From Bolinopsis microptera (Eukaryota; Ctenophora; Tentaculata; Lobata; Bolinopsidae), in the NCBI RefSeq assembly GCF_026151205.1, contig NC_087072.1, forward strand, positions 2,809,375 to 2,873,374: a stretch of 64,000 nt of DNA. The letters are read 5' to 3'. Shown piece by piece: positions 16,386 through 64,000 of this stretch. Position 1 is the stretch's first letter, and each line of letters opens with the position of its first letter. Made by a program: the position numbers and the translations under genes. The notes beneath the pieces were generated by a model, which did no database searches, was not told where the DNA came from, and was given only the letters and a program-made list of their open reading frames with translations.

Positions 16386-17305
16386 GGAAGAGGAGCATGA
16401 GGATGAGGAGGACTGAAGAGGAGAATGAGGAGGAAGAGGACTGAGGAGGAGGACTGAGGAGGAGGAGGACTGAGGAGGAATAGGACTGAGGATGAGGAGA
16501 AAGACTTAGGAGGAGTACTGATGAGGAGGAGAAGGAGGAGGAGGACTGAGGAGGAGAAGGAGGAAGAGGAGGAGGACTGAGGACTGAGGTGGAGGAGGAG
16601 GAGGAGGAGGAGGAGGAGGAGGAGGAGGAGGAGGACTGACGTGGAGAAGGAGTACTGAGGAGGAGGAGGATGATGACTGAGGAGGAGGAGGACTGAGGAG
16701 GAGGAGGAGTGAGGAGGAGGAGGACTGAGGAAGACTGAGGAGGAGGAGGAAGTGTAGGAGAAGGTAGACTCAGAAGGAGGAGGAGGACTGAAGAGGACGA
16801 GGAAGTGGAGGAGGTGGAGGAGGAAGAGGACTCAGGAGGGTGTGGACTCAGGAGGAGGAGGAATCAGGAGGACTCAGATGGAGGAGGACTCAGGAGGACT
16901 CAGGAGGAGGACTCAGAAGGAGGGGGAGGATGATGACACAGGAGGAGGAGAAGGAGGATGAGGAAGAGGAAGTGGGGGAGTAGGAGGACTGAGGAGGACT
17001 GAGGAGGAGGAGGAAGAGAAGGATGAGGAGGAGGACTGATGAGGAGGAGGAGAAGGACTGACGAGGAGGAGGAGGATGATGATGACTGAGGAGGAGGAAG
17101 ACTAAGGAGGACTGAGAAGGAGGAGGAAGAGGAGGAGGAGGGACATGAGGGAGAGGACGAGGAGGAGGATGATGAGGAGGAGGAGGAGGAGGAGGAGGAG
17201 GAGGAGGAGGAGGAGGAGGAGGAGGAGGAGGAGGAGGAGGAGGAGGAGGAGGAGGAGGAGGAGGAGGAGGAGGAGGAGGAGGAGGAGGAGGAGGAGGAGG
17301 AGGAG

Positions 17306-17332
<27 letters not shown>

Positions 17333-17336
<4 letters not shown>

Positions 17337-17525
17337 ATAAATGTTATTTCCATTTTTCCCTTTTTCCATAACATCTTTGTTCCGTTTTTTTTCGTTTTAT
17401 TTATTCTGTTTTTGTTCGCCCTACTTTTTGTCCGTTTTGAAAATAAAGGGTACCGAACGGACAGAAACGGACACAAAACATGATCCCCCTTTCCAGATAA
17501 TTGTAGGGCTATGAGACAGATAATC
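17333..17525. repeat. Spacer unit, second copy, embedded in the polypurine hub
   Basis: Near-identical to 16206-16385, displaced by 1127 bp, and again followed by a satellite fragment and GAGGAAGAGGA sequence. The two copies imply that a higher-order unit of about 1.13 kb was duplicated. Confidence 0.85.
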
Positions 17526-17690
17526 AAGAGGAAGAGGAGGATGAGGAGGACTGAAGAGGAGAATGAGGAGGAAGAGGACTGAGGAGGAGGAGGAGTAGGA
17601 CTGAGGAGGAAAAGGAGGAGGAAGACTGAGGAGGAGAAGGAGGAGGAGGACTGAGGAGGAGACGGAGGAAGAGGAATGGGGGACTGTTAT

Positions 17691-18755
17691 AGCCATACAA
17701 ATATCTGGAAAGTTTAAAGAAAATGTATCAGAATAGGATCTCGAAATATGTGTCTGCGTTCCACTAAAACGCGCTAATTTGAGATGTTTTCATGAGTTTG
17801 AAGTCATATCTCAGGTTTGGCACATAGAAATTCGCCCAAAATCACACAGAATATCCGTCTCACAGCCATAAAACTATCTGGAAAGTTTAAAGAAAATTTA
17901 TTAGTAGGATCTCGAAATATGTGCCTGCGTTCCGCTAGAAACCGCCATTTTGAGATATTTTCTTGTGTTTGAAGTCATATCTCAGGTTTGGCACATAGAA
18001 ATTCGCCCAAAATCGCACAGAATATCCGTCTCACAGCCATACAACTACCTGGAAAGTTTAAAGAAAATTTATCAGTAGGATCTCGAAATATGTGCCTGCG
18101 TTCCGCTAGAAACCGCCATTTTGAGATATTTTCTTGTGTTTGGAGTCATATCTCAGGTTTGGCACATAGAAATTCGCCCAAACTTGCTCAGATTATCTGT
18201 CTCATAGCCATACAACTATCTGGAAAATTTATCAGTAGGATCTCAAAATAATCGACTTTCGTCAAATATCGTTCCGAAACCGCCATTTTGAGATATTCTC
18301 TTGTGTTTGAAGTCATATCTCAAGTTCGGCACATAGAAACTCGACCAAAATCACACAGATTATCCGTCTCATAGCCATACAACTATCTAGAAAGTTTAAA
18401 GAAAATTTATCAGTAGGATCTCGAAATATGTGCCTGCATTCCGCTAGAAACCGCCAATTTTGAGATATTTTCTTGTGTTTGAAGTCATATCTCAGGTTTG
18501 GCACATATAAGGTTGCCCAAAATCGCACAGAATATCCGTCTCATAGCTATACAACTATCTGGAAAGTTTAAAGAAAATGTATCAGTAGGATCTCGAAATA
18601 TGTGCCTGCATTCCGCTAGAAACCGCCAATTTGGAGATATTTTCTTGTGTTTGAAGTCATATCTCAAGTTTAACATATAAAAATTCTCCCAAACTCTCAC
18701 ACATTATCCGTCATATAGCCATGTAACTATCTGGAAAGTTTAAAGAAAATCTGTT
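17691..18755 (-). repeat. 171-bp satellite array, inverted orientation, about 6 monomers
   Basis: From about 17691 the same monomer appears as its reverse complement (CTCGAAATATGTGCCTGCG, AAATTCGCCCAAAATC). It includes one copy of the GACGAAAGTCG-type variant near 18250. Monomers near the right end are more diverged, and the array stops near 18755. ORFs of 60-90 codons here are repeat translations. Confidence 0.93.
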
Positions 18756-48907: not shown

Positions 48908-49037
48908 TTGTAGCGCGATGCGTTACTGCGCCGCGCACTCAATGAGGCTTCTCACAGCAATGAGGCTTCTCTGGCTAGATCGGCGAGATGCGCTACTGTG
49001 CCGCGCCGAGCTGCCATGAATTGACATCGTCAATTAA
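48908..49037 (-). mobile_element. Small GC-rich non-autonomous element, best-preserved copy (130 bp)
   Basis: Starts TTGTAGCGCGATGCGTTACT and ends TTGACATCGTCAATTAA. It is flanked by a perfect 8-bp direct repeat GTTACTGC (48900-48907 and 49038-49045). Internally GATGCGYTACTGYGCCGCGC occurs twice, and the right end holds an AATTGA/TCAATT hairpin. Relatives: 24548, 24810, and the split copy 25454/36352. Confidence 0.82.
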
Positions 49038-49276
<239 letters not shown>

Positions 49277-50425
49277 AAATTGCCAGGAATGTTCTCTGTT
49301 CTCATATAAAAACTTTTATATTTGTTCTGATAAGTCACACTTTATTAGATACCAGCGTATTCACAGATTCACGGGTAAAGAATGTAAGTTTACTTCCACT
49401 TTTATATTATTAGTTTACCTATGAGGTATGATTAATGATTGCCTTTATAGTCTAGAAATAATCTCCACCAATTTTTTGAATTATTACATTGATAAGATTT
49501 ACTTTTGATAGGTACTTAATAAAGTTGATGAATTCCCTTCCCTATTAAATTTTTAAAAATATTTAGTGAAAATTGATAAACGAAGATCTAGATATTGATA
49601 CATATTATAACCAACATTGCTTATCCTCTGCCTTGTTAACAAAGAGCAAATTTTCTTAATGCCTTCTCCCTGTCCTAAAACCAAAACTTCATCCTATCAA
49701 AGTAAAGGCCTGTTGTTACCACAAGCTATTATACCGTCCCTCTCAAAAACATGCCTCAACCTCCATCAAAAACAATTTTAGTATTCAGTCCTTCTAGTTT
49801 CCAAAAATGTACCGAGCTAGTGTTCTGGTGTGCACAAAAGCCCCTAAGCCCGTGCATTCCTTGCCCCGCTAGCTGCCAGTCCTTGACAAACTTCCAATAG
49901 CAAAGATCAACTACCTAGTCATTTAAAAATTGAGCACTATACAATTTTAATTGTTTTAAATATTTGACTTTGTAAAATAAGCTAAAACATTGATTTATTA
50001 GTTTCATTGATTTATTAGTTTCATTGAATGTTTAGAGCTATGTTTGAAATGGATTTTTCTGATTTAAATAAGAGAATTTTGCAGTTTTTTGCACAAATAA
50101 ATGAGAAATTAATCATAATCTAACAATTAATTGAATCTCACTGATTTTGTCTTGTCTCAATAGTAGAAATTAGTAAATATATCGTTTTCCACTTTAATCT
50201 ATATTGAAATATTGTTCGTTATTTTTATTATATGACTATGATAATATGATATTTATTAACTGTATTATAGCTGCTTGGTACTGATAGAATACAGTTGTAT
50301 GAGGATGGTTTAATTATTATTATTTAATAATATTGCATTTATTTATACCACTGATAATTAAAGATTTTGTTATTTGAATTTAGAAAGTTTGTGTATTTTT
50401 ATTTTATTAATCAGTTATTTATCCA
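49277..50425. other. Intergenic or intronic region upstream of zinc-finger gene 1
   Basis: The first 200 bp match the region after gene 1, and about 50030-50425 matches 51523-51921 upstream of gene 2; the middle (about 49490-50020) is unique. No upstream exon could be identified. Confidence 0.6.
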
Positions 50426-50426
50426 G
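50412..50426 (+). promoter_or_regulatory. 3' splice acceptor of zinc-finger gene 1
   Basis: Pyrimidine-rich GTTATTTATCCAG, with AG at 50425-50426, precedes GAAAGTTTGTC and the ATG at 50438. The same acceptor-to-ATG arrangement occurs in all four complete copies. Confidence 0.65.
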
Positions 50427-50437
50427 GAAAGTTTGTC

Positions 50438-51328
50438 ATGTTAACACGGAGTAAAAGATCCTCAACAGCTGCTGATAAAGAAAAGAGTAACAAAAATGTA
50501 ATTCCAATCAAAAAGGAAATAAAAACTGAACAGGAGGAGGTGACTGGAATATCACATGGTTTTATTTGTCCGAAATGTGAAGCTCACTTCCTTTATGATA
50601 ATTTCTTTGTGGAACATATCAGAGAACATCATAGTGAAAAAATCAATGATATGTCTACTAGAAATGTCTTGTTTGATTCTTTACGATCATCAGTCAGATT
50701 GGACAAAGAAAATACTTCTCCTGTTGGGAAAGCTTTTAAATATGACGATTGTTCTTATAATACCTGTACTGAGAACATTGATCTTGTGAAACATTTACGT
50801 ATTCACACGGGAAAGAAACCCTACAAGTGTAAGGAATGTTCATATTATAGTGCTCAGAAAGGTGATCTTAAGAAACATATGAGGACTCACACGGGAGAGA
50901 AACCGTACAAGTGCAAGGAATGTTCATATTCTAGTGCTCAGAAATGTTCGCTCACAGCGCATATGAGGACTCACACCGGAGAGAATCCCTACAAGTGTAA
51001 GGAATGTTCCTATTGTAGTGCTCAGAAAGGTGATCTCAAGAGACATATGAGGACTCACACTGGAGAGAAACCCTACAAGTGCAAGGAATGTTCATATTCT
51101 AGTGCTCAGAAAGGTGATCTCAAGATACATATGAGGACTCACACGGGAGAGAAACCCTACAAGTGCAAGGAATGTTCATATTCTAGTGCTCAGAAAGGTC
51201 GGTTCAAGATACATATGAGGACTCACACGGGAGAGAAACCCTACAAGTGTAATGAATGTTCATATACTTGCTCTGATAAATCACGTCTTGTCAGACACCA
51301 ACGTACTCACACAAGAGAGAAACTCTAA
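50438..51328 (+). CDS. C2H2 zinc-finger protein, cluster copy 1 (about 8 fingers)
   Basis: 296 residues, probably a nuclear DNA-binding protein. The N-terminus (MLTRSKRSSTAADK) is basic and precedes PIKKEIKTEQEE, in which IKKE and IKTE both fit the sumoylation consensus. A first finger FICPKCEAHFLYDNFFVEH lies near residue 44. A second finger has Tyr for its first Cys (KYDDCSYNTC) and is probably dead. Six regular fingers follow with TGEKPYKC linkers; one linker is TGENPYKC. The array ends with [17 protein letters not shown] and REKL. ATG 50438 lies 12 bases after the splice acceptor, so this looks like a terminal coding exon. Confidence 0.88.
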   Translation: MLTRSKRSSTAADKEKSNKNVIPIKKEIKTEQEEVTGISHGFICPKCEAHFLYDNFFVEHIREHHSEKINDMSTRNVLFDSLRSSVRLDKENTSPVGKAFKYDDCSYNTCTENIDLVKHLRIHTGKKPYKCKECSYYSAQKGDLKKHMRTHTGEKPYKCKECSYSSAQKCSLTAHMRTHTGENPYKCKECSYCSAQKGDLKRHMRTHTGEKPYKCKECSYSSAQKGDLKIHMRTHTGEKPYKCKECSYSSAQKGRFKIHMRTHTGEKPYKCNECSYTCSDKSRLVRHQRTHTREKL

Positions 51329-51919
51329 AATTGCCAGGAATGTTCTCTGTTCTCATATAAAAACTTTTATATTTGTTCTGATAAGTCACACTTTATTAGA
51401 TACCAGCGTATTCACAGATTCACGGGTAAAGAATGTAAGTTTACTTCCACTTTTATATTATTAGTTTACCTATGAGGTATGATTAATGATTGCCTTTATA
51501 GTCTAGGAATAATCTCCACCAATGTTTAGAGCTATGTTTGAAATGGATTTTTCTGATTTAAATAAGAGAATTTTGCAGTTTTTTGCACAAATAAATGAGA
51601 AATTAATCATAATCTAACAATTAATTGAATCTCACTGATTTTGTCTTGTCTCAATAGTAGAAATTAGTAAATATATCGTTTTTCCAATTTAATCTATATT
51701 GAAATATTGTTCGTTATTTTTATTATATGACTATGATAATATGATATTTATTAACTGTATTATAGCTGCTTGGTACTGATAGAATACAGTTGTATGAGGG
51801 TGGTTTAATTATTATTATTTAATAATATTGCATTTATTTATACCACTGATAATTAAAGATTTTGTTATTTGAATTTAGAAAGTTTGTGTATTTTTATTTT
51901 ATTAATCAGTTATTTATCC
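51329..51919. other. Spacer between zinc-finger copies 1 and 2, with a relic finger after the stop
   Basis: After the stop, AATTGCCAGGAATGTTCTCT continues into a degenerate finger-like reading (NCQECS, then YICSDKSHFIRYQRIH in a shifted frame). The rest is AT-rich and repeats the gene 1 upstream sequence. Confidence 0.7.
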
Positions 51920-51921
51920 AG
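51907..51921 (+). promoter_or_regulatory. 3' splice acceptor of zinc-finger gene 2
   Basis: Same GTTATTTATCCAG context as gene 1, AG at 51920-51921, 11 bases before ATG 51933. Confidence 0.65.
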
Positions 51922-51932
51922 GAAAGTTTGTC

Positions 51933-52988
51933 ATGTTAACACGGAGTAAAAGATCCTCAACAGCTGCTGATAAAGAAAAGAGTAACAAAAATGTAATTCC
52001 AATCAAAAAGGAAATAAAAACTGAACAGGAGGAGGTGACTGGAGTATCACATGGTTTCATTTGTCCACAATGTCAAGCTCACTTCCTGTATGATGATTTC
52101 TTTGTGCAACACATCAGAGAACATCATGGTGAAACAATCAATGATATGTCTACAAGAAATGTCTTGTTCAATTCATTACCATCATCAGTCAGGTTGGGCA
52201 AAGAAAATACTTCTTCTGTTGGGAAAGCTTTTAAATGTGACGATTGTTCTTATACCTGTAATGAGAATAGTGATATTGTGAACCATTTATGTATTCACAC
52301 GGGAGAAAAACCCTACAAGTGTACGGAATGTTCATTTGCTTGCTCTTTTAAATCAAAGCTTATTAACCACCAACGTACTCACACGGGAGAGAAACCCTAC
52401 AAGTGTAGTCAATGTTCATATTCTTTTGCTCAGAAAGGTAATCTCAAGAAACATATGAGGACCCACACAGGAGAGAAACCCTACAAGTGTAAGGATTGTT
52501 CATATTCTTGTGCTCAGAAAGGTAATCTCACATTACATATGAGGACTCACACAGGAGAGAAACACTACAAGTGTAAGGATTGTTCATATTCTTGTGCTCA
52601 GAAAAGTAATCTCACATTACATATGAGGACCCACACAGGAGAGAAACCCTACAAGTGTAAGGAATGTTCATATTCTTGTGCTCAGAAAGGTAATCTCACA
52701 TTACATACGAGGACTCACACAGGAGAGAAACCCTACAAATGTAAGGAATGTTCATATGTTAGTGCTCAGAAAGGTGATCTCACACTACATATGATGACTC
52801 ACACAGGAGAGAAACCCTACAAGTGTAAGGAATGTTCATATTGTAGTGCTCGGAAAGTTGATCTCAAGAAACATATGAGGACTCACACAGGAGAGAAACC
52901 CTACAAGTGTAAGAAATGTGCATATACTTGCTCTGTTAAATCAAATCTTATTAAACACCAAAGAACTCACAAGAGAGAGAAACTATAA
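51933..52988 (+). CDS. C2H2 zinc-finger protein, cluster copy 2 (about 10 fingers)
   Basis: 351 residues, the longest array in the cluster. It has the same basic and KKEIKTEQEE N-terminus, a first finger FICPQCQAHFLYDDFFVQH, a second finger FKCDDCSYTCNENSD with all four ligands intact, then eight fingers with TGEKPYKC (two TGEKHYKC-type) linkers. The fingers YKCKDCSYSCAQKGNLTLH and its neighbours are near-identical, pointing to recent internal duplication. The residues that contact DNA (between the second Cys and first His) vary less than the linkers would allow, so specificity may be repetitive. It ends in SVKSNLIKHQRTHKREKL. Confidence 0.9.
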   Translation: MLTRSKRSSTAADKEKSNKNVIPIKKEIKTEQEEVTGVSHGFICPQCQAHFLYDDFFVQHIREHHGETINDMSTRNVLFNSLPSSVRLGKENTSSVGKAFKCDDCSYTCNENSDIVNHLCIHTGEKPYKCTECSFACSFKSKLINHQRTHTGEKPYKCSQCSYSFAQKGNLKKHMRTHTGEKPYKCKDCSYSCAQKGNLTLHMRTHTGEKHYKCKDCSYSCAQKSNLTLHMRTHTGEKPYKCKECSYSCAQKGNLTLHTRTHTGEKPYKCKECSYVSAQKGDLTLHMMTHTGEKPYKCKECSYCSARKVDLKKHMRTHTGEKPYKCKKCAYTCSVKSNLIKHQRTHKREKL

Positions 52989-53503
52989 AATTGCCAGGAA
53001 TGTTCTATACAACTGTTATACTTGTTCTGATCAGTCACACTTTATTAGACACCAGTGTATTCACTGGTAAAGAATGTCAGTTTATCTAGAAATAATCTCC
53101 ACAAATGTTTAGAGCTATGTTTGAAATGAATTTTTCTGATTTAAATAAAAGAATTTTGCAGTATGTTGACCAAATAAATGTGAAATTAAACTTAATCTTT
53201 GATATATATCTAACCATTAATTGAATCCCACTGATTTTGTCTTGTCTTAGTAGTAGAAATTAGTAAATTTAATGTTTTTTCACAATCTATATATTATTTG
53301 TTATTTTTATAATACGACTCTGAAATGAAATTTATTAACTGCATTATAGCTGCATGGAACTGATAGAATAAAGATGTCTGAAGGCGGTGTAAATATTATA
53401 ATTTGATAATATTCCATTTATTTATACCCAGTGGTAATTAAAGATTTAGTTATTTGAATTTGGAAAGTTTATATATTTTAATTTATTAATGAGTGTTTGT
53501 TGC
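52989..53503. other. Spacer between zinc-finger copies 2 and 3
   Basis: Again begins AATTGCCAGGAATGTTCTAT with a relic finger (CYTCSDQSHFIRHQCIHW in pieces), then AT-rich sequence like that upstream of copies 3 and 4. Confidence 0.7.
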
Positions 53504-53505
53504 AG
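53491..53505 (+). promoter_or_regulatory. 3' splice acceptor of zinc-finger gene 3
   Basis: GTGTTTGTTGCAG with AG at 53504-53505, 11 bases before ATG 53517. Because the open frame reads through it, an ORF start at 53493 is possible but would include intron sequence. Confidence 0.65.
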
Positions 53506-53516
53506 GAAAGTTTATA

Positions 53517-54329
53517 ATGTTAACTGGGAGTAAAAGATCCTCAACAGCTGCTGATAAAGTAAAGAGTAACATAACTGTAATTCCCATCAAAAAGGAAATA
53601 AAAACTGAACAGGAGGAGGTGACTGGAGTATCACACGGTTTCATTTGTCCACAATGTCAAGCTCACTTCCTGTATGATGAGTTCTTTGTGGAACACATCA
53701 GGGAACATCATGGTGAAACAATCAATGATATGTCTACTAGAAATGTCTTGTTCAATTCATTACCATCATCACATTCATCAGTCAGGTTGGGCAAGGAAAA
53801 TACTTCTTCTTTTGGGAAAGCTTTTAAATGTGACGATTGTTCTTATACCTGTAATGAGAATAGTGATCTTGTGAAACATTTATGTATTCACACGGGAGAA
53901 AAACCCTACAAGTGTACGGAATGTTCATTTGCTTGCTCTTTTAAATCAAAGCTTATTAACCACCAACGTACTCACACGGGAGAGAAACCCTACAAGTGTA
54001 GTCAATGTTCATATTCTAGTGCTCAGAAAGGTCATCTCACATTACATATGAGGACTCACACAGGAGAGAAACCCTACAAATGTAAGGAATGTTCATATGT
54101 TAGTGCTCAGAAAGGTGATCTCACATTACATATGAGGACTCACACAGGAGAGAAACCCTACAAGTGTAAGGAATGTTCATATTGTAGTGCTCGGAAAGTT
54201 GATCTCAAGAAACATATGAGGACTCACACAGGAGAGAAACCCTACAAGTGTAAGGAATGTGCATATACTTGCTCTGTTAAATCAAATCTTATTAAACACC
54301 AAAGAACTCACACGAGAGAGAAACTATAA
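53517..54329 (+). CDS. C2H2 zinc-finger protein, cluster copy 3 (about 7 fingers)
   Basis: 270 residues from the ATG equivalent to that of copies 1 and 2; an in-frame upstream ATG at 53493 lies before the splice acceptor and is less likely. The N-terminus starts MLTGSKRSSTAADK with the IKTE motif. The linker has an extra Ser-His repeat (SSHSSVRLGKE) relative to copy 2. Fingers: the FICPQC finger, FKCDDCSYTCNENSDLVKH, then five with TGEKPYKC linkers, ending in [18 protein letters not shown]. It has the beginning and end of copy 2 with three central fingers fewer, as expected from unequal exchange within the array. Confidence 0.9.
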   Translation: MLTGSKRSSTAADKVKSNITVIPIKKEIKTEQEEVTGVSHGFICPQCQAHFLYDEFFVEHIREHHGETINDMSTRNVLFNSLPSSHSSVRLGKENTSSFGKAFKCDDCSYTCNENSDLVKHLCIHTGEKPYKCTECSFACSFKSKLINHQRTHTGEKPYKCSQCSYSSAQKGHLTLHMRTHTGEKPYKCKECSYVSAQKGDLTLHMRTHTGEKPYKCKECSYCSARKVDLKKHMRTHTGEKPYKCKECAYTCSVKSNLIKHQRTHTREKL

Positions 54330-54914
54330 AATTGCCAGGAATGTTCTATACAACTGTTATACTTGTTCTGATCAGTCACACTTTATTAGACACCAGTGTA
54401 TTCACTGGCAAAGAATGTCAGTTTACACTTTACTTGGACCACTTTTATTTTATTAGTTTACCTATGAGGTATGATCAATGATTGCATTTATTATCTAGAC
54501 ATAATCTCCACAAATGTTTAGAGCTATGTTTGAAATGAATTTTTCTGATTTAAATAAAAGAATTTTGCAGTATGTTGACCAAATAAATGTGAAATTAAAC
54601 TTAATCTTTGATATATATCTAACCATTAATTGAATCCCACTGATTTTGTCTTGTCTTAGTAGTAGAAATTAGTTTAAATTTAATGTTTTTTCACAATCTA
54701 TATATTATTTGTTATTTTTATAATACGACTCTGAAATGAAATTTATTAACTGCATTATAGCTGCATGGAACTGATAGAATAAAGATGTCTGAAGGCGGTG
54801 TAAATATTATAATTTGATAATATTCCATTTATTTATACCCAGTGGTAATTAAAGATTTAGTTATTTGAATTTGGAAAGTTTATATATTTTAATTTATTAA
54901 TGAGTGTTTGTTGC
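54330..54914. other. Spacer between zinc-finger copies 3 and 4
   Basis: Carries the relic finger after the stop (in the ORF 54259-54456 reading YNCYTCSDQSHFIRHQ) and the conserved AT-rich upstream block. Almost identical to 52989-53503 apart from an extra piece near 54430-54500. Confidence 0.7.
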
Positions 54915-54927: not shown

Positions 54928-55068
54928 ATGTTAACTGGGAGTAAAAGGTTCTCAACTGCTGCTGATAAAGTTAACAGTAACATAACTGTAATTCCCATAA
55001 AAAAGGAAATAAAAACTGAACAGGAGGAGGTGACTGGAGTATCACACGGTTTCATTTGTCCACAATGT
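54928..55068 (+). pseudogene. C2H2 zinc-finger copy 4, 5' part (split by gypsy-like element)
   Basis: Encodes the N-terminus (MLTGSKRFSTAADK, KKEIKTEQEE) and the first finger up to FICPQC, then runs into the LTR at 55069. The frame continues into LTR sequence to 55191, which is not native. The rest of the gene is at 63297-64000, 8.2 kb downstream. Confidence 0.88.
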
Positions 55069-55933
55069 TGTTGTAAACGAGGTATTATACTAAAAGTTGG
55101 TCTACGTGGCGAGAAAGTGGGCGTTCCTAACTTATGTCAATCTACACTCACTAGTATCAAACGATCGGGAAGTATGTCCCAATATCAATAACAGAAAAGG
55201 AGAGAAGTGTGTCTCAACAATTTAGTTGTATCAGAAGTGTGTCCGATACAACAGTAAGGAGTGTGCCTTACTAAACTTCAACAATAAATACGTAACAGTA
55301 AAGGAGAGAAGTGTGTCTCTACAATTTGGTTGTATCAGAAGCGTGTCTGATACAACAGTAAGGAGTGTGCCTTACTAAACTTCAACAACAAATACGTAAC
55401 AATAAAGGAGAGAAGTGTGTCTCTACAATTTGGTTGTATCAGAAGTGTGTCCGATACAACAGTAAGGAGTGTGCCTTACTAAACTTCAACAATAAATTTT
55501 AAAGGTGAGAAGTGTGTCTCACTAAAAATGTCTAAATAGAATAGAAAAAAGTCTTTGGATAATTCGGTAAATAAACGTATTGTACTTTGTAATAATCTTA
55601 AAAACTCTCCAAAAGGGGGACGTGACACAGACACCCGCACTGAACAAGTAGGCCCTTAAAAAGGCTGTACTCACGCGTGAATATAAGTCACGCATGAGTA
55701 CAACTTCCGCGTGCTCGTACTTACACGTAAAAATAAAATTTAAAGATAAGAAATGTAAATGAATGTAACCTAGCACTAAAAGGATTCTAAAAGATGCTGC
55801 AATATAAAACCTACGAAATTACTTTACCCTAGTGGACTATAAGAACTAACTATTAAACTATAATATAAACTGTACTAAAAACCTAACTTAACCCTTGATC
55901 CTGCTAAATTGACCCTAATCCTACTTAACTACA
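55069..55933 (-). repeat. 3' LTR of the gypsy-like element
   Basis: Plus strand begins TGTTGTAAACGAGG and ends CTTAACTACA. Besides the stem-loop array it holds a 15-bp inverted repeat with one mismatch (TGTACTCACGCGTGA and TCACGCATGAGTACA, 55666-55702). Confidence 0.93.
55167..55522 (-). repeat. Array of 11 stem-loops with a common loop, in the 3' LTR
   Basis: Stems on the plus strand: GGGA/TCCC at 55167; then three repeats (104-bp period) of GAGA/TCTC (55202), GTTGTATCAGA/TCCGATACAAC (55225) and AGTAAGG/CCTTACT (55253); then GTGAGA/TCTCAC (55505). Each encloses AGTGTG (once AGTATG, once AGCGTG). In the middle repeat the stem position that is A-C elsewhere reads as an A-T pair, which improves pairing. 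Confidence 0.88.
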
Positions 55934-56544
55934 TATCACCCCAACAAGAAAACGTGATGCTGTGTCGTCTCTAGGAGACAACACAACATCAGAAATTAAA
56001 ATTTTACAAAAAATATTTTCCCAAAAATTCAACATTTTTTTCAAATGTTTGCGACTAAAACAGATTCATCGCCCAAATATTACAATCAAAACCGCGTTTG
56101 AAAACGGTACACTTAGTACGTTTTAAAAGAGCTGAACTTCAAATCATATACATTCACATACAATAGTCCTTCTCAGAGGCAGGATAAAAATGATCATCTA
56201 ATACAATTAGATATAAACTGTCTTCTTTATATTTACTCAAAATCAACAAAAATAGTTCATCGTCATCATTTCGTATCCATCTTTTCTTTATCATCATAAA
56301 TCTTTCTCCATCTTTTACTCCGTCGTTGAAGAAACATCATTTTCTTTCCCATCTTGAAACGCCAGGTACTTCTGTGAACTGGTTTACACAGACAAATACT
56401 ACTGACAAACATTCTGACTCATACTGATGTAGTCTAGCAGTGTGGCTAGAACTATACCAACTATAATCGATCGGTCAACTGTGCTCGGTTGGGCCTGGGT
56501 AGCACTCCAATCCCAGTCTTGAAACCGTGCCCGAATATCTGGCA
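55934..56544 (-). other. Non-coding region between integrase and 3' LTR of the gypsy-like element
   Basis: No ORF of size and no envelope-like sequence. Next to the LTR the minus strand reads TTGGGGTGATA, a weak candidate polypurine tract. Confidence 0.6.
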
Positions 56545-58398
56545 TTACTGAAATATTCCAGCCAGATTGGTAATCACCCGTCTAATCGTAGATGATTGGT
56601 TATCACTGTAATAGTCCGGAGGTCGCAAACTTTCTCTGTTCCTCAACCCATATCGTGGTTCTGGTTCCGGTATCTCTTGATGGCTCTGTTCTTCAGCATC
56701 CAGCTGAACTGTGCCTTCATCACTAGTTTCGAAAGACACAAAGGCACCCGTTGAGTTTCTACTCTCCTGTTCTTCTAAAGATCCACTTCGTCGATCAGTT
56801 TCTTCTTCATTCAATTCCGTTGGAGGAGTGGTCCTTATCGATATTGGCGAAGCTGGTAATCTTTCAATCTCTCGTGTAGTTGTCCGAGCAGGTGGTGGTT
56901 GAACTGGGGTACTACTCATATCAGGAGCAGCTATCACAGGATCAAGTGTCTTGTCGGGATGTAAAGACTGTCTTTTTCTACGCTGAGGATGATGTATTGT
57001 AGCAAACTGTTCGTCTTCGTCACTGTCATCGTTGTTCAGTTCACCTGTATGGGTGTCTGAAGAAGCAGTCTGTGCACCAGAGTGGGTGACAGGGAGAGCA
57101 GTCTGTGCGCCAGAGTGGGTGACAGCTAAAGGATATTTGGTCTTATTGTGCTTATTCCTCGCAAAATGTTTCATTTTACTGATATTTGTCACTTTATCCG
57201 TATCAGGTGTTATCTGCACAACATAAAGATGGTCATTTATCACTTTCTTTACCAATAGCGGACCTCTCCATCTTATTGAGTACTTGTGTTGAGGACAGTT
57301 TATCAGGACATAACACAGATCACCTGCTTTAAAGTATGGTCCCAGGATATTTCTGTCATGCTGATGTTTAGAGTACAGAAAGTCCGTGTCCGCATTTTCC
57401 CGAACTTTTCTAAGTGTTCTCTTCATCAAGGTATACATCTCGTAAGCTCCTTTACTTTTCTTTGATGGGATCTCCGTCTTTAAGTCATTATCCACAAGTA
57501 AAGTTATCGGGGTGTTTGTTTCCCTTCCAAAGACTAATCTGTTGCTTGAGTATCCAGTGTGTCTGTTTTTCAGTGAGTTAAGCGCCATGACACAGTAGCC
57601 CAAATAAATGTCCCAGCATCTTTCTTTTCCCTCTGGAATAGCAGCTCTCAACGCCTGGTTTATCCTTTTATTTGATCTCTCTGCTTTTCCGGTGCTCCGT
57701 GCTTTGTAACTTGTGCCGTGAGTTACCTTACATTCAAAGTACTGCCATATTGCTTTGAAATAATCAGCCGAGTAGCCTGGATGATTATCGACGATGATCT
57801 CTTTTGGTATTCCATGAATCAACGTCCAACGTCGAACAATTTGTTCAATGTTTTCTTTTGCAGTCTGTGTCTTTACAGGAATTGCCACAACATAGTTGCT
57901 CCACGCATCAGTTATAGTCAGGATATACCGATATCCTCGTGGAGTTCTTCCCTCAGACTCTGGCACTATGTGGTCCACAATGATGCAATCGTTGAAGGAG
58001 TGGAATAACATGTGTCGTAGAGGGGCTTTCAGGTACCTCTGTGGTTGCTTTATGGCTCCGCACTTCTCGCAAGCTGCAATGTATTCTTTGAAATCCTCAA
58101 CCATCTTGGGCCAATAGAAGTTTCGGCGACAGAGGTCAACCGATATTTCTGCTCCAGGGTGGCAACTTGTAAGGGTCGAGTGATGTAGCTTCATAATCCC
58201 TTCGACGAGAATCTCCGGTACAACGATCAGGTCCCGTTTCTGATCTGGATGTCTCACATTCACCCATGCTCTCATAAGTAAACCATCATCAGAGATCTTC
58301 AGCAGATTAAATTGTTTCCACAATGAAACTAACATAGCTGGAGTCCTATTAGTATGGATCTTGGGCTTTTCTCCAGCAATTATCCAGTCTTTGACCAC
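56545..58398 (-). CDS. Gypsy-like integrase and C-terminal tail of Pol
   Basis: 617 residues. Integrase would join element DNA to the chromosome. The HHCC zinc domain is visible (LHHSTLTSCHPG to ACEKC, about residues 72-110). In the catalytic core, Asp is in IIVDHIVPE, the second Asp in IIVDNHPGYSADYF and Glu in GKAERSNKRINQAL. A GPY/F-like module (RWRGPLLVKKV) follows near residue 375. The tail is acidic and Thr/Ser-rich, with an 11-residue tandem repeat (VTHSGAQTALP). The first Met follows a frameshift near 58490, so the native frame comes from 58380-58946. Confidence 0.9.
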   Translation of the reverse strand: MVKDWIIAGEKPKIHTNRTPAMLVSLWKQFNLLKISDDGLLMRAWVNVRHPDQKRDLIVVPEILVEGIMKLHHSTLTSCHPGAEISVDLCRRNFYWPKMVEDFKEYIAACEKCGAIKQPQRYLKAPLRHMLFHSFNDCIIVDHIVPESEGRTPRGYRYILTITDAWSNYVVAIPVKTQTAKENIEQIVRRWTLIHGIPKEIIVDNHPGYSADYFKAIWQYFECKVTHGTSYKARSTGKAERSNKRINQALRAAIPEGKERCWDIYLGYCVMALNSLKNRHTGYSSNRLVFGRETNTPITLLVDNDLKTEIPSKKSKGAYEMYTLMKRTLRKVRENADTDFLYSKHQHDRNILGPYFKAGDLCYVLINCPQHKYSIRWRGPLLVKKVINDHLYVVQITPDTDKVTNISKMKHFARNKHNKTKYPLAVTHSGAQTALPVTHSGAQTASSDTHTGELNNDDSDEDEQFATIHHPQRRKRQSLHPDKTLDPVIAAPDMSSTPVQPPPARTTTREIERLPASPISIRTTPPTELNEEETDRRSGSLEEQESRNSTGAFVSFETSDEGTVQLDAEEQSHQEIPEPEPRYGLRNRESLRPPDYYSDNQSSTIRRVITNLAGIFQ

Positions 58399-58946
58399 TT
58401 TAAGAATCTGATCTTTATCCTGTTCATCACATATCTTTTTTCTTTTAGGCTCGACATCAACATCCTCGGTAACAGCAGATACTTGAAATTCTTTAATTCC
58501 TCTTCGCTCAACCTCTTTTCATTTACTGGCATTTCTTGCAATGCACAATAGCATTCAACCTCCTCAACTTTTTGAATCTTGAAATTCACTACAGACTCGT
58601 ATTCTCCTTCAAATAGTAGCTGCAGATCACTGGGTATCTCCACCTCACTGATAGTCGTGCTATCATCACAGACGGGTGGTAAGATATTTTCCTTCTTCTT
58701 TTCGGACTGAGTTTTACTTCCGTCACAGAGTGGTGACGAAGTATTTTCTTTCACGCTGTTCGTATCTACACAGATTGGTGTAATACTCTTTACTCTAAAC
58801 ATCTCGGCTTCTTCAGTCTGTGTAGAAATCTCAACAGTTGATGGTTTCATTCCATAACGAGAAAGGAAATCTGAGACGTTCCGCACTCCTTCAATGTGAT
58901 GCATAGTGAAGTTGAAGGCTGCTAGCTCCTGTAATCGTCGTATCAT
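58380..58946 (-). CDS. Gypsy-like Pol, linker between RNase H and integrase
   Basis: 188 codons. The start (LQELAAFNFTMHHIEGVRNV and DFLSRYGMKPS) is the end of the RNase H region typical of gypsy Pol. The rest is a variable Glu/Lys/Ser-rich linker. The last 35 or so residues are out of frame because of a frameshift near 58490; the frame of 56545-58398 takes over. The native frame enters from 58992-59840 across the TGA at 58992-58994. Confidence 0.75.
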   Translation of the reverse strand: MIRRLQELAAFNFTMHHIEGVRNVSDFLSRYGMKPSTVEISTQTEEAEMFRVKSITPICVDTNSVKENTSSPLCDGSKTQSEKKKENILPPVCDDSTTISEVEIPSDLQLLFEGEYESVVNFKIQKVEEVECYCALQEMPVNEKRLSEEELKNFKYLLLPRMLMSSLKEKRYVMNRIKIRFLKWSKTG

Positions 58947-58991
58947 CGTGGGGTTAGCTTTGAATATAGTGTCCAGGTGGAGGAGACTCTT

Positions 58992-59840
58992 TCAGTCAGT
59001 GATCACTTTAAATGTCTTAGCTCCTCTAAGATAGACAGCCCAGTGTTTCAAACTTGCACATAACGACTCGAATTCAAGCTTTGTTTGACCCCATTCTCTC
59101 TTGTGTCGAGGAACTGCTTTGCTGAAGTACCCCACCGTTCTTCTCTGTCCATCAATCATCTGGGTTAAAGTTGCAGCCAGACCATGTATTGAAGCATCCA
59201 CTGTAACTTCGTAAGAATCATGAGGATCGTGTACTTCAGGGAAGCAGAGGGTAGGCGAGCTGCTGATTGCAATTTTCAGGTCTTCGAAACTTTTCTGGCA
59301 TTCTGATGTCCAGACAAATTTTCTTCCTTTCTGCAGCAGTGCGTATAGAGGTTCACTGAGCTCTGCATAACGTCTAACGAATTTTCTGTTGTATCCGAAG
59401 AATCCTAACACTTTTTGGGTCTCTTTCACCGTTCTTGGAGGCTCTATTTTCTTGATTGCCTCTATTCGATCATCATTTATCCGTATTCCTTCAGTACTCA
59501 GGGTAATACCGACATATCTCACCTCTGTTCGCATCAATTCCGTTTTGTTGGGGGTGAGCTTCAGATTCGCACTCATCAGCTGCTTCAACATCCTTTCCAG
59601 TCTTTCAATGTGAGAATGCACATCCTTAGAACCCAAAAGTAAATCATCTAAAAAATAAAGAAGGTGTTCGATACTAGGTGAGTGTTCTAACAATCTGTAG
59701 ACCATACGAGTAAAGATAGAACTAGAACTACAGTGACCCATAATCATTCTAGCAAAATTATATCTACGTCCCTTATAACTAAATGCAGTGATAGGTTTTG
59801 AAGCTTCATCGTATGGAATCTGATGGAAACTCGCAGCCAT
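58992..59840 (-). CDS. Gypsy-like Pol, reverse transcriptase palm/thumb and RNase H
   Basis: 282 residues: MAASFHQIPYDEASKPITAF (RT block), MGHCSSSSIFTRMV, the catalytic LYFLDDLLLG, and thumb LTPNKTELMRTEVRYVG, then the connection VLGFFGYNRKFVRRY. RNase H follows (DSYEVTVDASIHGLAATL, TKLEFESLCASLKHW), ending in VITD and TGA. The TGA stands where a sense codon is expected (the next frame codons read KSLLHL), so it is a nonsense change. A frameshift near 59905 separates it from 59879-60988. Confidence 0.88.
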   Translation of the reverse strand: MAASFHQIPYDEASKPITAFSYKGRRYNFARMIMGHCSSSSIFTRMVYRLLEHSPSIEHLLYFLDDLLLGSKDVHSHIERLERMLKQLMSANLKLTPNKTELMRTEVRYVGITLSTEGIRINDDRIEAIKKIEPPRTVKETQKVLGFFGYNRKFVRRYAELSEPLYALLQKGRKFVWTSECQKSFEDLKIAISSSPTLCFPEVHDPHDSYEVTVDASIHGLAATLTQMIDGQRRTVGYFSKAVPRHKREWGQTKLEFESLCASLKHWAVYLRGAKTFKVITD

Positions 59841-59878
59841 ATCAAACGTAGAGAATATACAGTCGCCACCTATTTTAT

Positions 59879-60988
59879 CTAGTACGTGATTGATGTTAGG
59901 AAGTCATACTTGTCCGCTAGGCACTGTTTGTTTACTCCCCGAAGATCTGCGACCACACGATATGTTCCAGGAGAAGACTTGGCTACGAGGAAAATGGGAG
60001 AATTCCAGTTAGATTCAGTTGTCAGTGGCTCAACTACTCCAGTATTTATCATATTGTCCATCAAATCATCCATCTTATGTTCAAGATTGTAAGGAACCTT
60101 TCTCTCAGGCGTCCAGCTGGGTACAGAATCTCTCTTGAGGTCAATGTGAGCGTTAAACATATTACAACAACCAAAATCATCCTTGTCGTAAGCAAAACAA
60201 GATCTATACTTCCACAACACATCCTTTAATCTCTGTGTCTCAGAGTCGCTCATCTCAACTTGGATCTTCTGCAGCTTTAAAGCATCAAACAGCTCGTTCT
60301 TAGTCCACTTACTCACCCTCTCTCCGGCAACAGAATGGAAGCCGGCAGGTGCAGGATAACTATCATTCGCCCTCACATTACTGTGAACCATTTTAACTCC
60401 TTGTACACCACCACTTTCTGTGGCTGGTCGCAGAAAACCTAACATGCTCCCCTTATAAATAGTCATGGGTTCATTACTAACATTGATACACCTAATAGGA
60501 ACCCAACGTTTATCAGTGTACACTATAGAGGGTGCCATCAGTACACCGGTAGCTAACATGGTTTTCTCGTACGGTTCTGTTATTCCTTGGTAATTTACAA
60601 ATGTTTGGGGAATTTTACCCGATATAAACTGCACTGTTCTAGGAGGGATGATAACTGTATCTTTACACCTTATTTTCTTCACATGAGGTATGTCACGTGG
60701 TTTCTCCGATAATGTACAGGATTGACCGTTCTCTTTAAATAGTTTGGAACTACCGAAATCTATACTAAGCTTGTTAGCTTCAAGAAAATCCAAACCCACT
60801 AGAAATTCAACGTCTAACATGTTGGTAACGATGAATACGTGCCGAGCTGATACAACTTCTCCAATTCTGAGGTCTAAGCTTATTTGACCTAGTACAGTTA
60901 TGGCATTATTCGAAAATGACGTCAATGCTGCTTTGGAATTCTGTACTTTATCTACCAGACCTATTCTATTGATAAATCCTGGTGACAC
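59879..60988 (-). CDS. Gypsy-like Pol, aspartic protease and start of reverse transcriptase
   Basis: 369 residues from the first Met, but the frame is open upstream to the slippery site at 61153-61159, and the protease active site (FLDSGSGVSL) lies upstream of that Met near 61005. A second protease block is VEFLVGLDFLEANKLSIDFG. Then a linker leads to RT: VPYNLEHKMDDLMDNMIN, NSPIFLVAKSSPGTYRVVAD and LRGVNKQCLADKYDF, ending in a frameshift near 59905. The expected continuation (LPNINHVLDKIGGD) is in another frame. It has no ATG of its own near the true start, as expected for a frameshift-expressed Pol. Confidence 0.85.
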   Translation of the reverse strand: MSPGFINRIGLVDKVQNSKAALTSFSNNAITVLGQISLDLRIGEVVSARHVFIVTNMLDVEFLVGLDFLEANKLSIDFGSSKLFKENGQSCTLSEKPRDIPHVKKIRCKDTVIIPPRTVQFISGKIPQTFVNYQGITEPYEKTMLATGVLMAPSIVYTDKRWVPIRCINVSNEPMTIYKGSMLGFLRPATESGGVQGVKMVHSNVRANDSYPAPAGFHSVAGERVSKWTKNELFDALKLQKIQVEMSDSETQRLKDVLWKYRSCFAYDKDDFGCCNMFNAHIDLKRDSVPSWTPERKVPYNLEHKMDDLMDNMINTGVVEPLTTESNWNSPIFLVAKSSPGTYRVVADLRGVNKQCLADKYDFLTSITY

Positions 60989-61086
60989 TAAACTTACACC
61001 ACTTCCGCTATCTAAAAATACATGAACGGGTACACCCTTACAGCTACCCTTCGCTAATAGTTCTTTCTTAGATACTATCTTATCAA

Positions 61087-61159
61087 CACGGTTATAGTTA
61101 GTACCTAATTGAGACGGCTGGGATGTACCGTGAACTCGCCAGCCGTATTCCCGTTTAAA
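61087..61159 (-). promoter_or_regulatory. Predicted -1 ribosomal frameshift signal at the gag/pol junction
   Basis: The minus strand has TTTAAAC at 61159-61153, in frame as T TTA AAC with gag (codon phase checked against the stop at 61107-61105). After a 6-nt spacer an 8-bp stem forms: ACGGCTGG (61146-61139) with CCAGCCGT (61121-61114). CACGGT in its loop (61132-61127) can pair with ACCGTG downstream (61092-61087), making a pseudoknot. The -1 frame is open from the heptamer into protease. These are the textbook elements of -1 frameshifting; function is inferred. Confidence 0.8.
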
Positions 61160-62076
61160 GAAGACCGTTGATTGTTGTTAAACTGAGAATACGTGTTTGC
61201 ACCAGAATTCCTACTATAACGGTTCTGATTTCTAGACCAACATTGACTTGTGTGATGGTTTGTCCTATGACAGATATTACATGATCTAACATCTTGTTCA
61301 TTGCGGTACTGATCAGATCTGATACTACGACAGAATCTCGCCATGTGTCCAGGCTGGTTACAGTTATAGCAGATCATGGGGCGTTCACTGCGCCTTGAGT
61401 TGTTCTGGTTGTGGTTCTGTACTGTGCGGTAATTGGTATGCGGTACACGAGGTTGATCTGGGCCGTCAATACGTAAAACGTCAAATGAAGACTGCAACTG
61501 TGAAACTGGTTCTAAATCACCATGATCCTGGGTTGATATCAGTATATGTTCGTGTTTGATAGCTAAGCGTGTAGCTACATCAAACAACTTCAACTCAGAT
61601 TCCTTAAGTTTCCGCCTTACTTCTACACTGTGGAGCCCATTACCCAAAGCAGACAAACACGCCTCATTCTTGAGAGTATGCTCAAGGGGAGAGAACGCCT
61701 TCGCAGCTTCTGTTTCAATACGTAATGCGAAATCCTCCACATTTTCATCCGGATTCTGCCTTAATTTGTACATAGCATCTCTCAAGGTACGTGACTCCGC
61801 ATCTGGGTACAATACTGCTCTGATAGCCGCAGTGAATTTAGTCACGGACAAAATGTTAGCACTGTTTATGGTATTCAAAATGCTTTTAAACTTCCGGTAC
61901 ATCTTATCGTCTTCTACAAGATTTAATAGACGTAAATCTAGGTTGTTAACATAACTATCACCACTTATAATCATGTATTGTTCAAATCTATCTAAAAATA
62001 TACAGATATCTTGCCCCACCTTAAACTTAGGAGGCTTGGCGATCTGAGCTTTTGACTGAACATTTACACTAGGCAA
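61105..62076 (-). CDS. Gypsy-like Gag (capsid and two zinc knuckles)
   Basis: 323 residues from the first Met, though the frame is open upstream. A capsid-like region contains KFKVGQDICIFLDRFEQYM, LNLVEDDKMYRKF, RTLRDAMYKLRQNPDENVEDF and ALGNGL. Two knuckles follow, CYNCNQPGHMARFC and CNICHRTNHHTSQC, both fitting C-x2-C-x4-H-x4-C. The Asn/Arg/Gln-rich tail ends at a TAG inside the predicted pseudoknot. It overlaps the upstream Gag ORF by 13 nt in another frame. Confidence 0.88.
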   Translation of the reverse strand: MPSVNVQSKAQIAKPPKFKVGQDICIFLDRFEQYMIISGDSYVNNLDLRLLNLVEDDKMYRKFKSILNTINSANILSVTKFTAAIRAVLYPDAESRTLRDAMYKLRQNPDENVEDFALRIETEAAKAFSPLEHTLKNEACLSALGNGLHSVEVRRKLKESELKLFDVATRLAIKHEHILISTQDHGDLEPVSQLQSSFDVLRIDGPDQPRVPHTNYRTVQNHNQNNSRRSERPMICYNCNQPGHMARFCRSIRSDQYRNEQDVRSCNICHRTNHHTSQCWSRNQNRYSRNSGANTYSQFNNNQRSSLNGNTAGEFTVHPSRLN

Positions 62077-62324
62077 TCGTGCAAGAAACTGTGTTCTGGA
62101 AATTCTGGAGGTGAAACTATTTCCTGTTTGTTATCAGCATTAGTTCGTTTATTATCAGATACTAAGTATTGTTGATGTTCTGAATTATACTCTGCTATTT
62201 GTCTCTCGATGTTTGTGTGCTCAACTTTAGCAGTAGTAATTTTGACCACAAGTTCTCCTAGATTTACATTTATTTCCTTTACATCCTGACTAGTTTCTTG
62301 ACCATCCTTACTCTGCTTTATCAA
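62064..62324 (-). CDS. Gypsy-like Gag, N-terminal coiled-coil part
   Basis: 86 codons, Lys/Glu-rich with a coiled-coil-like pattern (VKEINVNLGELVVKI, VEHTNIERQIAEY). It ends near where the main Gag frame begins, and the main frame stays open upstream for at least 20 codons (RISRTQFLARL), so the two may be one Gag separated by a frameshift, or the short ORF may be a separate leader. About 100 bp of leader separates it from the 5' LTR. Confidence 0.6.
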   Translation of the reverse strand: MIKQSKDGQETSQDVKEINVNLGELVVKITTAKVEHTNIERQIAEYNSEHQQYLVSDNKRTNADNKQEIVSPPEFPEHSFLHDCLV

Positions 62325-62431
62325 ACTACTTATCTGTTCATCTAATTCAGCTATTGCTTTTACGGAAGCTTCTAGTTCGATTCGGACAGTAAGGTAGACG
62401 ACATTAAGTTTACTTTCCGTGGCCCTCCAGA

Positions 62432-63296
62432 TGTTGTAAACGAGGTATTATACTAAAAGTTGGTCTACGTGGCGAGAAAGTGGGCGTTCCTAACTTATGT
62501 CAATCTACACTCACTAGTATCAAACGATCGGGAAGTATGTCCCAATATCAATAACAGAAAAGGAGAGAAGTGTGTCTCAACAATTTAGTTGTATCAGAAG
62601 TGTGTCCGATACAACAGTAAGGAGTGTGCCTTACTAAACTTCAACAATAAATACGTAACAGTAAAGGAGAGAAGTGTGTCTCTACAATTTGGTTGTATCA
62701 GAAGCGTGTCTGATACTACAGTAAGGAGTGTGCCTTACTAAACTTCAACAACAAATACGTAACAATAAAGGAGAGAAGTGTGTCTCTACAATTTGGTTGT
62801 ATCAGAAGTGTGTCCGATACAACAGTAAGGAGTGTGCCTTACTAAACTTCAACAGTAAATTTATAAAGGTGAGAAGTGTGTCTCACTAAAAATGTCTAAA
62901 TAGAATAGAAAAAAGTCTTTGGATAATTCGGTAAATAAACGTATTGTACTTTGTAATAATCTTAAAAACTCTCCAAAAGGGGGACGTGACACAGACACCC
63001 GCACTGAACAAGTAGGCCCTTAAAAAGGCTGTACTCACGCGTGAATATAAGTCACGCATGAGTACAACTTCCGCGTGCTCGTACTTACACTAAAACTAAA
63101 ATTTAAAGATAAGAAATGTAAATGAATGTAACCTAGCACTAAAAGGATTCTAAAAGATGCTGCAATATAAAACCTACGAAATTACTTTACCCTAGTGGAC
63201 TATAAGAACTAACTATTAAACTATAATATAAACTGTACTAAAAACCTAACTTAACCCTTGATCCTACTAAATTGACCCTAATCCTACTTTACTACA
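62432..63296 (-). repeat. 5' LTR of the gypsy-like element
   Basis: Same length as the 3' LTR, with roughly eight visible differences (for example near 62716, 62855 and 63291), including two compensating indels. It abuts the target duplication ATGT and the zinc-finger sequence on the right. Confidence 0.93.
62530..62886 (-). repeat. Array of 11 stem-loops with a common loop, in the 5' LTR
   Basis: Same order as 55167-55522: GGGA/TCCC at 62530, three 104-bp repeats, and GTGAGA/TCTCAC at 62869-62886, all closing AGTGTG-type loops. One stem differs (GATACTAC instead of GATACAAC near 62713), which weakens that pairing by one base. Confidence 0.88.
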
Positions 63297-63939
63297 ATGT
63301 CAAGCTCACTTCCTGTATGATGAGTTCTTTGTGGAACACATCAGAGAACATCATGGTGAAGCAATCAATGATATGTCTACTAGAAATGTCTTGTTCAATT
63401 CATTACCATCATCAGTCAGGTTGGGCAAAGAAAATACTTCTTCTGTTGGGAAAGCTTTTAAATGTGACGATTGTTCTTATACCTGTAATGAGAATAGTGA
63501 TCTTGTGAACCATTTATGTATTCACACGGGAGAAAAACCCTACAAGTGTACGGAATGTTCATTTGCTTGCTCTTTTAAATCAAAGCTTATTAACCACCAA
63601 CGTACTCACACGGGAGAGAAACCCTACAAGTGTAGTCAATATTCATATTCTAGTGCTCAGAATGTTGATCTCAAGAAACATATGAGGACCCACACAGGAG
63701 AGAAACCCTACAAGTGTAAGGATTGTTCATATTCTTGTGCTCAGAAAGGTAATCTCACATTACATATGAGGACTCACACAGGAGAGAAACACTACAAGTG
63801 TAAGGAATGTTCATATGTTAGTGCTCAGAAAGGTAATCTCACATTACATATGAGGACTCACACAGGAGAGAAACCCTACAAGTGTAAGGAATGTTCATAT
63901 TGTAGTGCTCGGAAAGGTGATCTCACATTACATATATGA
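63297..63939 (+). pseudogene. C2H2 zinc-finger copy 4, 3' part (split and frameshifted)
   Basis: Resumes at ATGTCAAGCTCACTTCC, the continuation of finger 1 in copies 2 and 3 (FVEHIREHHGEAINDMS). It then encodes FKCDDCSYTCNENSDLVNH and five more fingers with [16 protein letters not shown] linkers. The third finger has Tyr for its second Cys (YKCSQYSYSSAQ). A 2-bp TA insertion near 63933 (LHI then stop) breaks the frame; the finger sequence itself continues in another frame to the window edge at 64000. Confidence 0.88.
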
Positions 63940-64000
63940 GGACTCACACAGGAGAGAAACCCTACAAGTGTAAGGAATGTTCATATTGTAGTGCTCGGAA

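Follow-up and report, generated by a model that had tools for sequence, protein, structure and literature searches.

Hairpins with one loop type on unrelated stems in a Ty3/gypsy retrotransposon, and their possible reading by Gag

Introduction

Why would a retrotransposon carry, in both of its long terminal repeats (LTRs), an array of eleven hairpins whose stems differ while the loop stays nearly the same? The question is raised by a Ty3/gypsy LTR retrotransposon on the minus strand (55069-63296) of a 64-kb window, the whole stretch of DNA analysed here. A preliminary description had treated the hairpins as an array confined to the LTR, proposed that structure rather than sequence is selected, and offered Gag, a host RNA-binding protein or a DNA site array as explanations. 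Here, we take up these proposals using the window itself and the 264.65-Mb assembly that contains it, which was searched for relatives.

The element and its layout

The two LTRs are direct repeats of 865 bp each (3' LTR 55069-55933, 5' LTR 62432-63296, both on the minus strand), with 99.2% mutual identity and TG...CA ends in sense. They are flanked by a 4-bp target-site duplication, ATGT, which has the same letters on the left (55065-55068) and right (63297-63300) and no assigned strand. ATGT is single at the corresponding site in two zinc-finger paralogs of the window (about 52070 and 53653). These belong to a cluster of C2H2 zinc-finger paralogs at 49000-54400 and 63300-64000, into one member of which the element has inserted. 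Direct LTRs, TG...CA ends, a short target duplication, and the order gag (with a zinc knuckle), reverse transcriptase (RT)-RNase H, integrase together place the element in Ty3/gypsy.

The coding region is read as a series of open reading frame (ORF) pieces, all on the minus strand. The first is gag, with a CCHC zinc knuckle and an uncertain start codon (61105-62076), followed by a piece without a Pfam match (59879-60988), RT-RNase H (58992-59840), a second piece without a Pfam match (58380-58946), and integrase (56545-58398), which has an H2C2 zinc-binding domain and an rve core slightly below the curated cut-off. A probable primer-binding site, called by position only, starts TGGAGGGCC two nucleotides past the LTR (62412-62429, minus strand). 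As to the primer tRNA, ARAGORN found no tRNA genes in the 64-kb window, and Rfam families gave no matches there at gathering score. Searching with the integrase confirmed no relatives in IMG/VR; gag has 14 matches in public protein sets, one of them 93% identical.

A TATA-like motif, TTTTTAAG, and an initiator-like TCAGT are predicted in the 5' LTR (63003-63026, minus strand), at LTR positions 271 and 290, while the hairpin array occupies positions of about 411-770. Since both motifs precede the array, it is probably transcribed as part of the 5' leader. The leader position proposed earlier is thus likely, on a motif-based prediction of the start site. Directly upstream of the TATA-like motif, U3 contains a separate hairpin with a 17-bp stem and a 7-nt loop, present in both LTRs (63028-63068, 55664-55704) and containing TCACGCGTGA. 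Elsewhere, positions 10554-18750 of the window hold 171-bp satellite arrays in both orientations, flanking a long GAG-rich simple repeat.

A hairpin array in both LTRs

Each LTR holds eleven hairpins with CAYRCU hexaloops, at 55164-55523 in the 3' LTR and at 62527-62887 in the 5' LTR, the latter array lying downstream of the predicted start site (both minus strand). All eleven stem-loops of the preliminary description, with their different stems and single hexaloop type, were found again, and the array is indeed repeated in the other LTR. In the left LTR, nine loops read AGTGTG on the plus strand, with AGTATG and AGCGTG once each as described, giving nine CACACU, one CAUACU and one CACGCU in sense RNA. 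The middle three hairpins form the 104-bp unit noted previously, present in 3.0 copies. Only roughly does the array adjoin the primer site, as its end falls about 95 nt short of the end of the LTR.

In each LTR, two out of three long GTTGTATC stems show an A/C mismatch when read on the plus strand. In RNA from the minus strand, which is the sense strand, the same position is a G.U, and pairing of these stems is complete only in that form. The hairpin closest to the LTR end likewise reaches 7 bp via a U.G pair in sense, and the third long stem of the right LTR is reduced to 8 bp through one change. When both strands of the 64-kb window were searched for CAYRCT hairpins with 4 bp or more of stem, these were found only in this element and only on its sense strand. 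Minus-strand folding and stem covariation had both been suggested as checks. Compared with shuffled sequences, the array folds with z = -4.9 in sense vs -2.9 in antisense, and the six distinct LTR stems, which have closing bases in common, covary with a score of 0.87 vs 0.30 when shuffled.

The array recurs in copies elsewhere in the genome, with some of its stems compensated and others broken. Array length varies among these relatives, with two units in L011, three in the window element and four in L006; the 3.4-kb locus L016 carries 31 hairpins in a 98-bp tandem. In L013, the stem GTGAGA/TCTCAC has changed on both sides to ATGAGA/TCTCAT. Similarly, AGTAAGG/CCTTACT has become AGTGAGG/CCTCACT in L074, with a G.U intermediate in L015. 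The two commonest stem exceptions among diverged LTR copies are G.U pairs in sense. There are broken stems too; exceptions that are A.C in sense occur mostly in decayed copies. This comparison weighed distinct sequences only; some loci overlap or are segmental duplicates (L016 with L018-L020, L013 with L014, L015 with L017, L010 with L023).

One locus, L021 (G000:C12:6722320-6723156), whose LTR is 73% identical, was left out. Hypermutation was considered and rejected for it, as its differences resemble sequence of poor assembly quality: homopolymers are expanded and small indels numerous within an otherwise 96-99% identical copy. It is probably unpolished assembly, and the same cause may apply to a broken gag stretch at G000:C6:20588244-20589183. 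Among the remaining relatives, L003 and L004 show a duplicated GATA but lack an adjoining internal region, and look like solo LTRs inside a segmental duplication. At L016-L020 (G000:C8:3639229-3640381), the hairpin unit now forms satellite-like tandem repeats of 98 bp. A related LTR family (L027-L030) has retained the upstream LTR portion together with one CACACT hairpin, with similarity ending at the next hairpin, past its loop; this break may reflect template switching.

Hairpins of the same type inside the element

The earlier view of an LTR-only array proved too narrow, as the same loop type recurs in the internal region. Six CANNCU hairpins are distributed along it, all in sense, on stems of 5 bp or more that are unrelated to one another. 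Two lie in gag: CTTGAG CATACT CTCAAG (61668-61687), whose loop is CACACT in the chromosome-7 copy (L006), and TAGCTA CACGCT TAGCTA (61559-61578). Three lie in pol, namely ATGTG CATTCT CACAT in the RT piece (59606-59625), and both TACAC CAATCT GTGTA (58765-58784) and CGTCAC CACTCT GTGACG (58720-58739) in the ORF piece at 58380-58946. The sixth, TCTAGC CACACT GCTAGA (56432-56451), follows the integrase ORF. A seventh, near-consensus hairpin in the ORF piece at 59879-60988 (60680-60699; also minus strand, like the others) was recovered by a model built from the LTR only, and has 7 bp including one G.U and the loop CATACC. A scan for the narrow CAYRCT loop closed by a stem of 4 bp or more yields three internal hairpins (61668-61687, 61559-61578 and 56432-56451); the three pol hairpins are added by the loop CANNCT, to which the motif was relaxed after seeing the data.

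These internal hairpins exceed chance under several nulls. Among internal sense hairpins with a hexaloop and a stem of 5 bp or more, 6 of 13 have a CANNCT loop, whereas 200 shuffles average 0.01 such hairpins and never give more than 1. None was found on the internal antisense strand or on either strand of the other 55.8 kb of the window, where a single CANNCT hairpin appears once stems of 4 bp are allowed. If the loop is held to CAYRCT, the form set by the LTR, the internal region still has three hairpins with stems of 6 bp or longer vs 0.0 in 200 shuffles. In the coding pieces, five hairpins are seen vs 0.08 under synonymous-codon permutation, a number reached in 0 of 300 permutations. Counted by word, 6 of 30 CA..CT words of the internal sense strand sit in such hairpins vs 8 of 6452 other words (Fisher 1.7e-11), and 0 of 40 antisense CA..CT words of the internal region sit in hexaloop hairpins of at least 4 bp. 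A census that takes the best of all loop masks gives 6 for the window element, where 60 shuffles reach 4 at most.

Of the five best non-LTR matches that a covariance model built from six LTR hairpins gives in the 64 kb, four are internal sense hairpins, including the one at 60680-60699. The fifth, outside the element (31863), scores between the internal ones, and the pol hairpins at 59606, 58765 and 58720 were not recovered at E values up to 10. Covariation is 1.25 vs 0.27 shuffled in a 12-row alignment of LTR and internal hairpins, and 1.48 in a further hairpin alignment of 18 rows, scores that are partly circular because both alignments contain hairpins selected for pairing.

Since copies of the internal region in this family are mostly 95-99% identical, the intact hairpins in them say little. 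The stretch around 56432-56451 recurs in other, diverged repeats. Across the 17 rows aligned with it (one 25-nt match dropped, and rows L010 and L023 representing the same place), the loop varies at both N positions (CACACT, CACGCT, CAAACT), the degraded L092_2272 excepted, and L090 has a stem change.

Taken together, covariation among LTR stems, wobble pairing in sense, some compensated stems among the LTR copies that have diverged, and hairpins that occur independently within coding sequence support the proposal that pairing and loop, not stem sequence, are what is kept.

Sister families with other loops

An RT search of the genome returned at least 138 places. Four sister gypsy families among them carry their own sense hairpin sets, found by a census of loop masks independent of CANNCT. 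The loop is GGAUN in two families (weakly so in one) and UGAACUG in the other two. In the RT tree (midpoint-rooted), all four sisters fall into one group (100/100) that divides by loop into a GGAUN pair (97/96) and a UGAACUG pair (90/88), and the family of the window element, F1 and F2 are separate branches. A CCHC knuckle is encoded by the window element and by each of the four sisters.

One sister set has a GGAUN pentaloop and belongs to the element at C9:8.53 Mb, which is young, as its LTRs are 99.7% identical over 299 bp. Of its GGAT. words, 14 of 51 in 7.0 kb lie in hairpins of at least 4 bp, against none in antisense and a shuffle mean of 0.10; GGA.. hairpins of at least 5 bp number 9 vs 0.27 under a synonymous null in 3.75 kb of coding sequence. 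The C12:11.0-Mb element, also with GGAUN loops, has 8 of 92 GGA.. words in hairpins and 0 of 41 in antisense, and is weak in strict tests. For L042, the strict census gives 2, not above shuffles, and the synonymous test is weak (4 vs 0.68, with a maximum of 4, over 1371 nt). GGAUC loops, which can be closed further into a GAU triloop, are removed by a filter from the loop census, the control-lineage census and the comparison of site conservation. The elements at C7:9.87 Mb and C9:14.48 Mb have loops of the UGAACUG type (TGA..WG), with 3 hairpins vs 0.10 and 3 vs 0.03 under the synonymous null. In the best-of-all-masks census, L056 (6 vs a maximum of 3) clearly beats 60 shuffles, as does the window element, and L043 and L054, with 4 each, exceed the shuffle maximum of 3 by one only.

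Comparison between sisters suggests how these sets evolve. L043 and L054 share 67% nucleotide identity, and all five pairs of the UGAACUG-type hairpins of L043 are kept in L054 in 3 of 3 cases, vs 2 of 28 other hairpins. Two of these three have one pair changed on both sides. In the reverse direction, all five pairs are kept in 5 of 5 motif hairpins vs 5 of 21 others. At one aligned site, L043 and L054 have a UGAACUG hairpin where L056 has a GGAUU (TGGATTA) hairpin; at another, the same stem carries UGAACAG in L043 and UGGAUAA in L054. GGAUN hairpins are rarely shared, with all five pairs kept in the other element for 1 of 2 in L042 and 1 of 6 in L056 (Fisher 0.09 and 0.25), and the rest are mostly confined to single lineages when the alignment is judged by eye. 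This looks like site turnover under selection for the number of hairpins and their loop, not their place. Five families in one genome are few for a rule that the loop follows the family, and L042 is weak when taken alone.

The device is not general among gypsy lineages, as five other lineages, all partly sampled, lack a repeated loop. No loop set rose above shuffles in the parts covered of F1, F2, L094, L095 with L065, or L096 with L067, and the 5' region of L066 showed no excess in the same census. CANNCT hairpins of at least 5 bp were absent from 25 examined RT loci of other families, many of which are F1 copies. A 12-hairpin model run on 36 other-family loci found a single site at E 0.001, the next match having E 0.19. 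This site is an 8-bp CACACT hairpin in the F1 LTR, in antisense, present in four LTR copies of three elements (L061 942-961, L071 778-797, L072 1185-1204, L073 1268-1287). It is not explained by packaging of RNA by Gag, and may be chance or a U3 palindrome. A different pattern occurs in the gypsy 5' region of L064 (G000:C9:17001700-17003900), where TGATTCT GATAA AGAATCA is present in five copies with the same stem as well as the same loop.

What might read the loops

We favour, with some reserve, the reading that the element's genomic RNA presents the hairpins as a series of recognition sites to a protein of the element's own, most likely Gag. Gag selects genomic RNA in retroelements generally, which makes it the best candidate. 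The loop would be the recognised letter, the stem would only present it, and the reader would be Gag with its capsid and zinc-knuckle nucleocapsid. Where the LTR is probably transcribed, a dense array could start assembly on the correct RNA, single hairpins across gag, pol and the 3' region could add cooperative contacts, and loops proper to each family (CANNCU, GGAUN, UGAACUG) might let co-resident families package their own RNA. What the sequences show is the hairpins themselves, their excess over shuffled and synonymous-codon controls, their confinement to the sense strand and the different loops of sister families; we infer the transcription start, the binding of Gag and the packaging of genomic RNA. 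Zinc knuckles usually bind loops containing G, and CANNCU has none, which counts against Gag. The broader proposal is that in some Ty3/gypsy families the genomic RNA is labelled by a loop peculiar to the family, set on many unrelated stems in the LTR or leader and across coding sequence and read by the family's own Gag, and that sister families have switched the code (UGAACUG/GGAUN) and gained new sites; we would put this at about an even chance.

It is unlikely, though still to be taken seriously, that a host RNA-binding protein reads the hairpins for export, translation, localisation or stability of unspliced element RNA. An array in the probable leader would serve such a protein well, and sense restriction and wobble pairing would suit any RNA reader. 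However, a host protein common to all families would be expected to hold them to a single loop, whereas families in the same genome use different loops and each would need a different host protein; this difference points to a reader encoded by the element. Nor does the rest of the window contain any such hairpin of at least 5 bp. Of the binders offered in the preliminary description, Gag thus fits the loop differences between families better than a shared host protein or an array of DNA sites does. N6-methyladenosine (m6A) was also considered and set aside, as GGAUN and CANNCU do not fit its DRACH pattern; GAACU, within the UGAACUG loop, does.

A DNA site array, acting as an insulator or promoter element, is quite improbable. 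Its model would be the Su(Hw) array of Drosophila gypsy, reported as 12 sites in 340 bp of 5' untranslated region (PMC2374998) and thus similar in size and place, and the antisense CACACT hairpin of the F1 LTR would suit a DNA or strand-blind role. The likeness ends there, as Su(Hw) sites are DNA sites with another consensus. The published 12-letter consensuses (YRYTGCATAYYY or YWGCMTACTTHY) are absent from both strands of the array and of the whole element, and the shorter core GC[AC]TACTT has two matches on the element's sense strand, neither of them in the array. Moreover, a DNA-binding protein needs no complementary flanks of arbitrary sequence, and the hairpins in coding sequence are in sense only. 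Stems that are arbitrary but complementary, confinement to the sense strand, and commonest exceptions that are G.U in sense make RNA, not DNA, the likely level of action.

Very improbable, too, are contacts between RNA loops, whether kissing in dimerisation or pairing with an RNA that bears the complement. Repeated, accessible loops would be suitable, and a kissing-loop model of Ty1 dimerisation has been published (PMC5454406), but CACACU is not self-complementary, GGAUN and UGAACUG are not palindromic, and hexaloop hairpins with an AG..TG loop and a stem of 4 bp or more are absent from the internal sense strand. Finally, it is highly improbable that a single chance palindrome, duplicated in tandem, accounts for the LTR hairpins and that the internal ones are coincidence or come from choosing the motif after the fact: although the 104-bp unit is tandem, the LTR stems share closing bases, some LTR copies freely expand the array and the loop was widened to CANNCU post hoc, the narrow LTR-fixed loop and the best-of-all-masks census still exceed their shuffles, and the pattern is repeated in sister families.

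If the Gag-read loop code is real, it predicts the RNA preference of each family's Gag. Its changes between sister families would then offer a natural series for studying protein-RNA coevolution.

Comparison with known systems

In bacteria, the CsrB/RsmZ RNAs present many hairpins with one loop motif on different stems to a single protein reader; these are regulatory RNAs unrelated to the window element. The packaging determinants of retroviruses and of Ty1/Ty3 are structured leader RNA beside the primer site, thought to be read by Gag. The window element likewise has structured RNA in its probable leader, adjoining the primer site. Unlike the 5' determinants of those systems, which are few and unique stem-loops, it has many hairpins sharing a loop. 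How the Gag of LTR retrotransposons picks its own RNA is, by one account, poorly defined even in Ty1 and Ty3, whose packaging sequences are described there as not precisely defined (PMC4974528). A literature search by titles and abstract openings, with few subscription journals covered, found no report of shared-loop hairpin sets in LTR retrotransposons.

A further parallel is with the dispersed packaging signals described for single-stranded RNA viruses (STNV with its AxxA loop, MS2, enteroviruses), which are likewise many short stem-loops with a common degenerate loop on different stems and act in the manner proposed for the element. STNV is reported to have about 30 AXXA stem-loops along its genome (PMC3593212). 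The element carries what defines such signals, several stem-loops with a common loop and variable stems in excess of chance. It differs from them in being an LTR retrotransposon, in its dense tandem array in the LTR and in a loop that changes among sister families, and capsid binding, which belongs to the viral case, is here only proposed. An in vivo role is disputed even for AxxA of STNV, the best-known dispersed signal, according to one source (PMC6475782). A Gag-read loop in these families would extend this disputed idea of dispersed packaging signals to retroelements.
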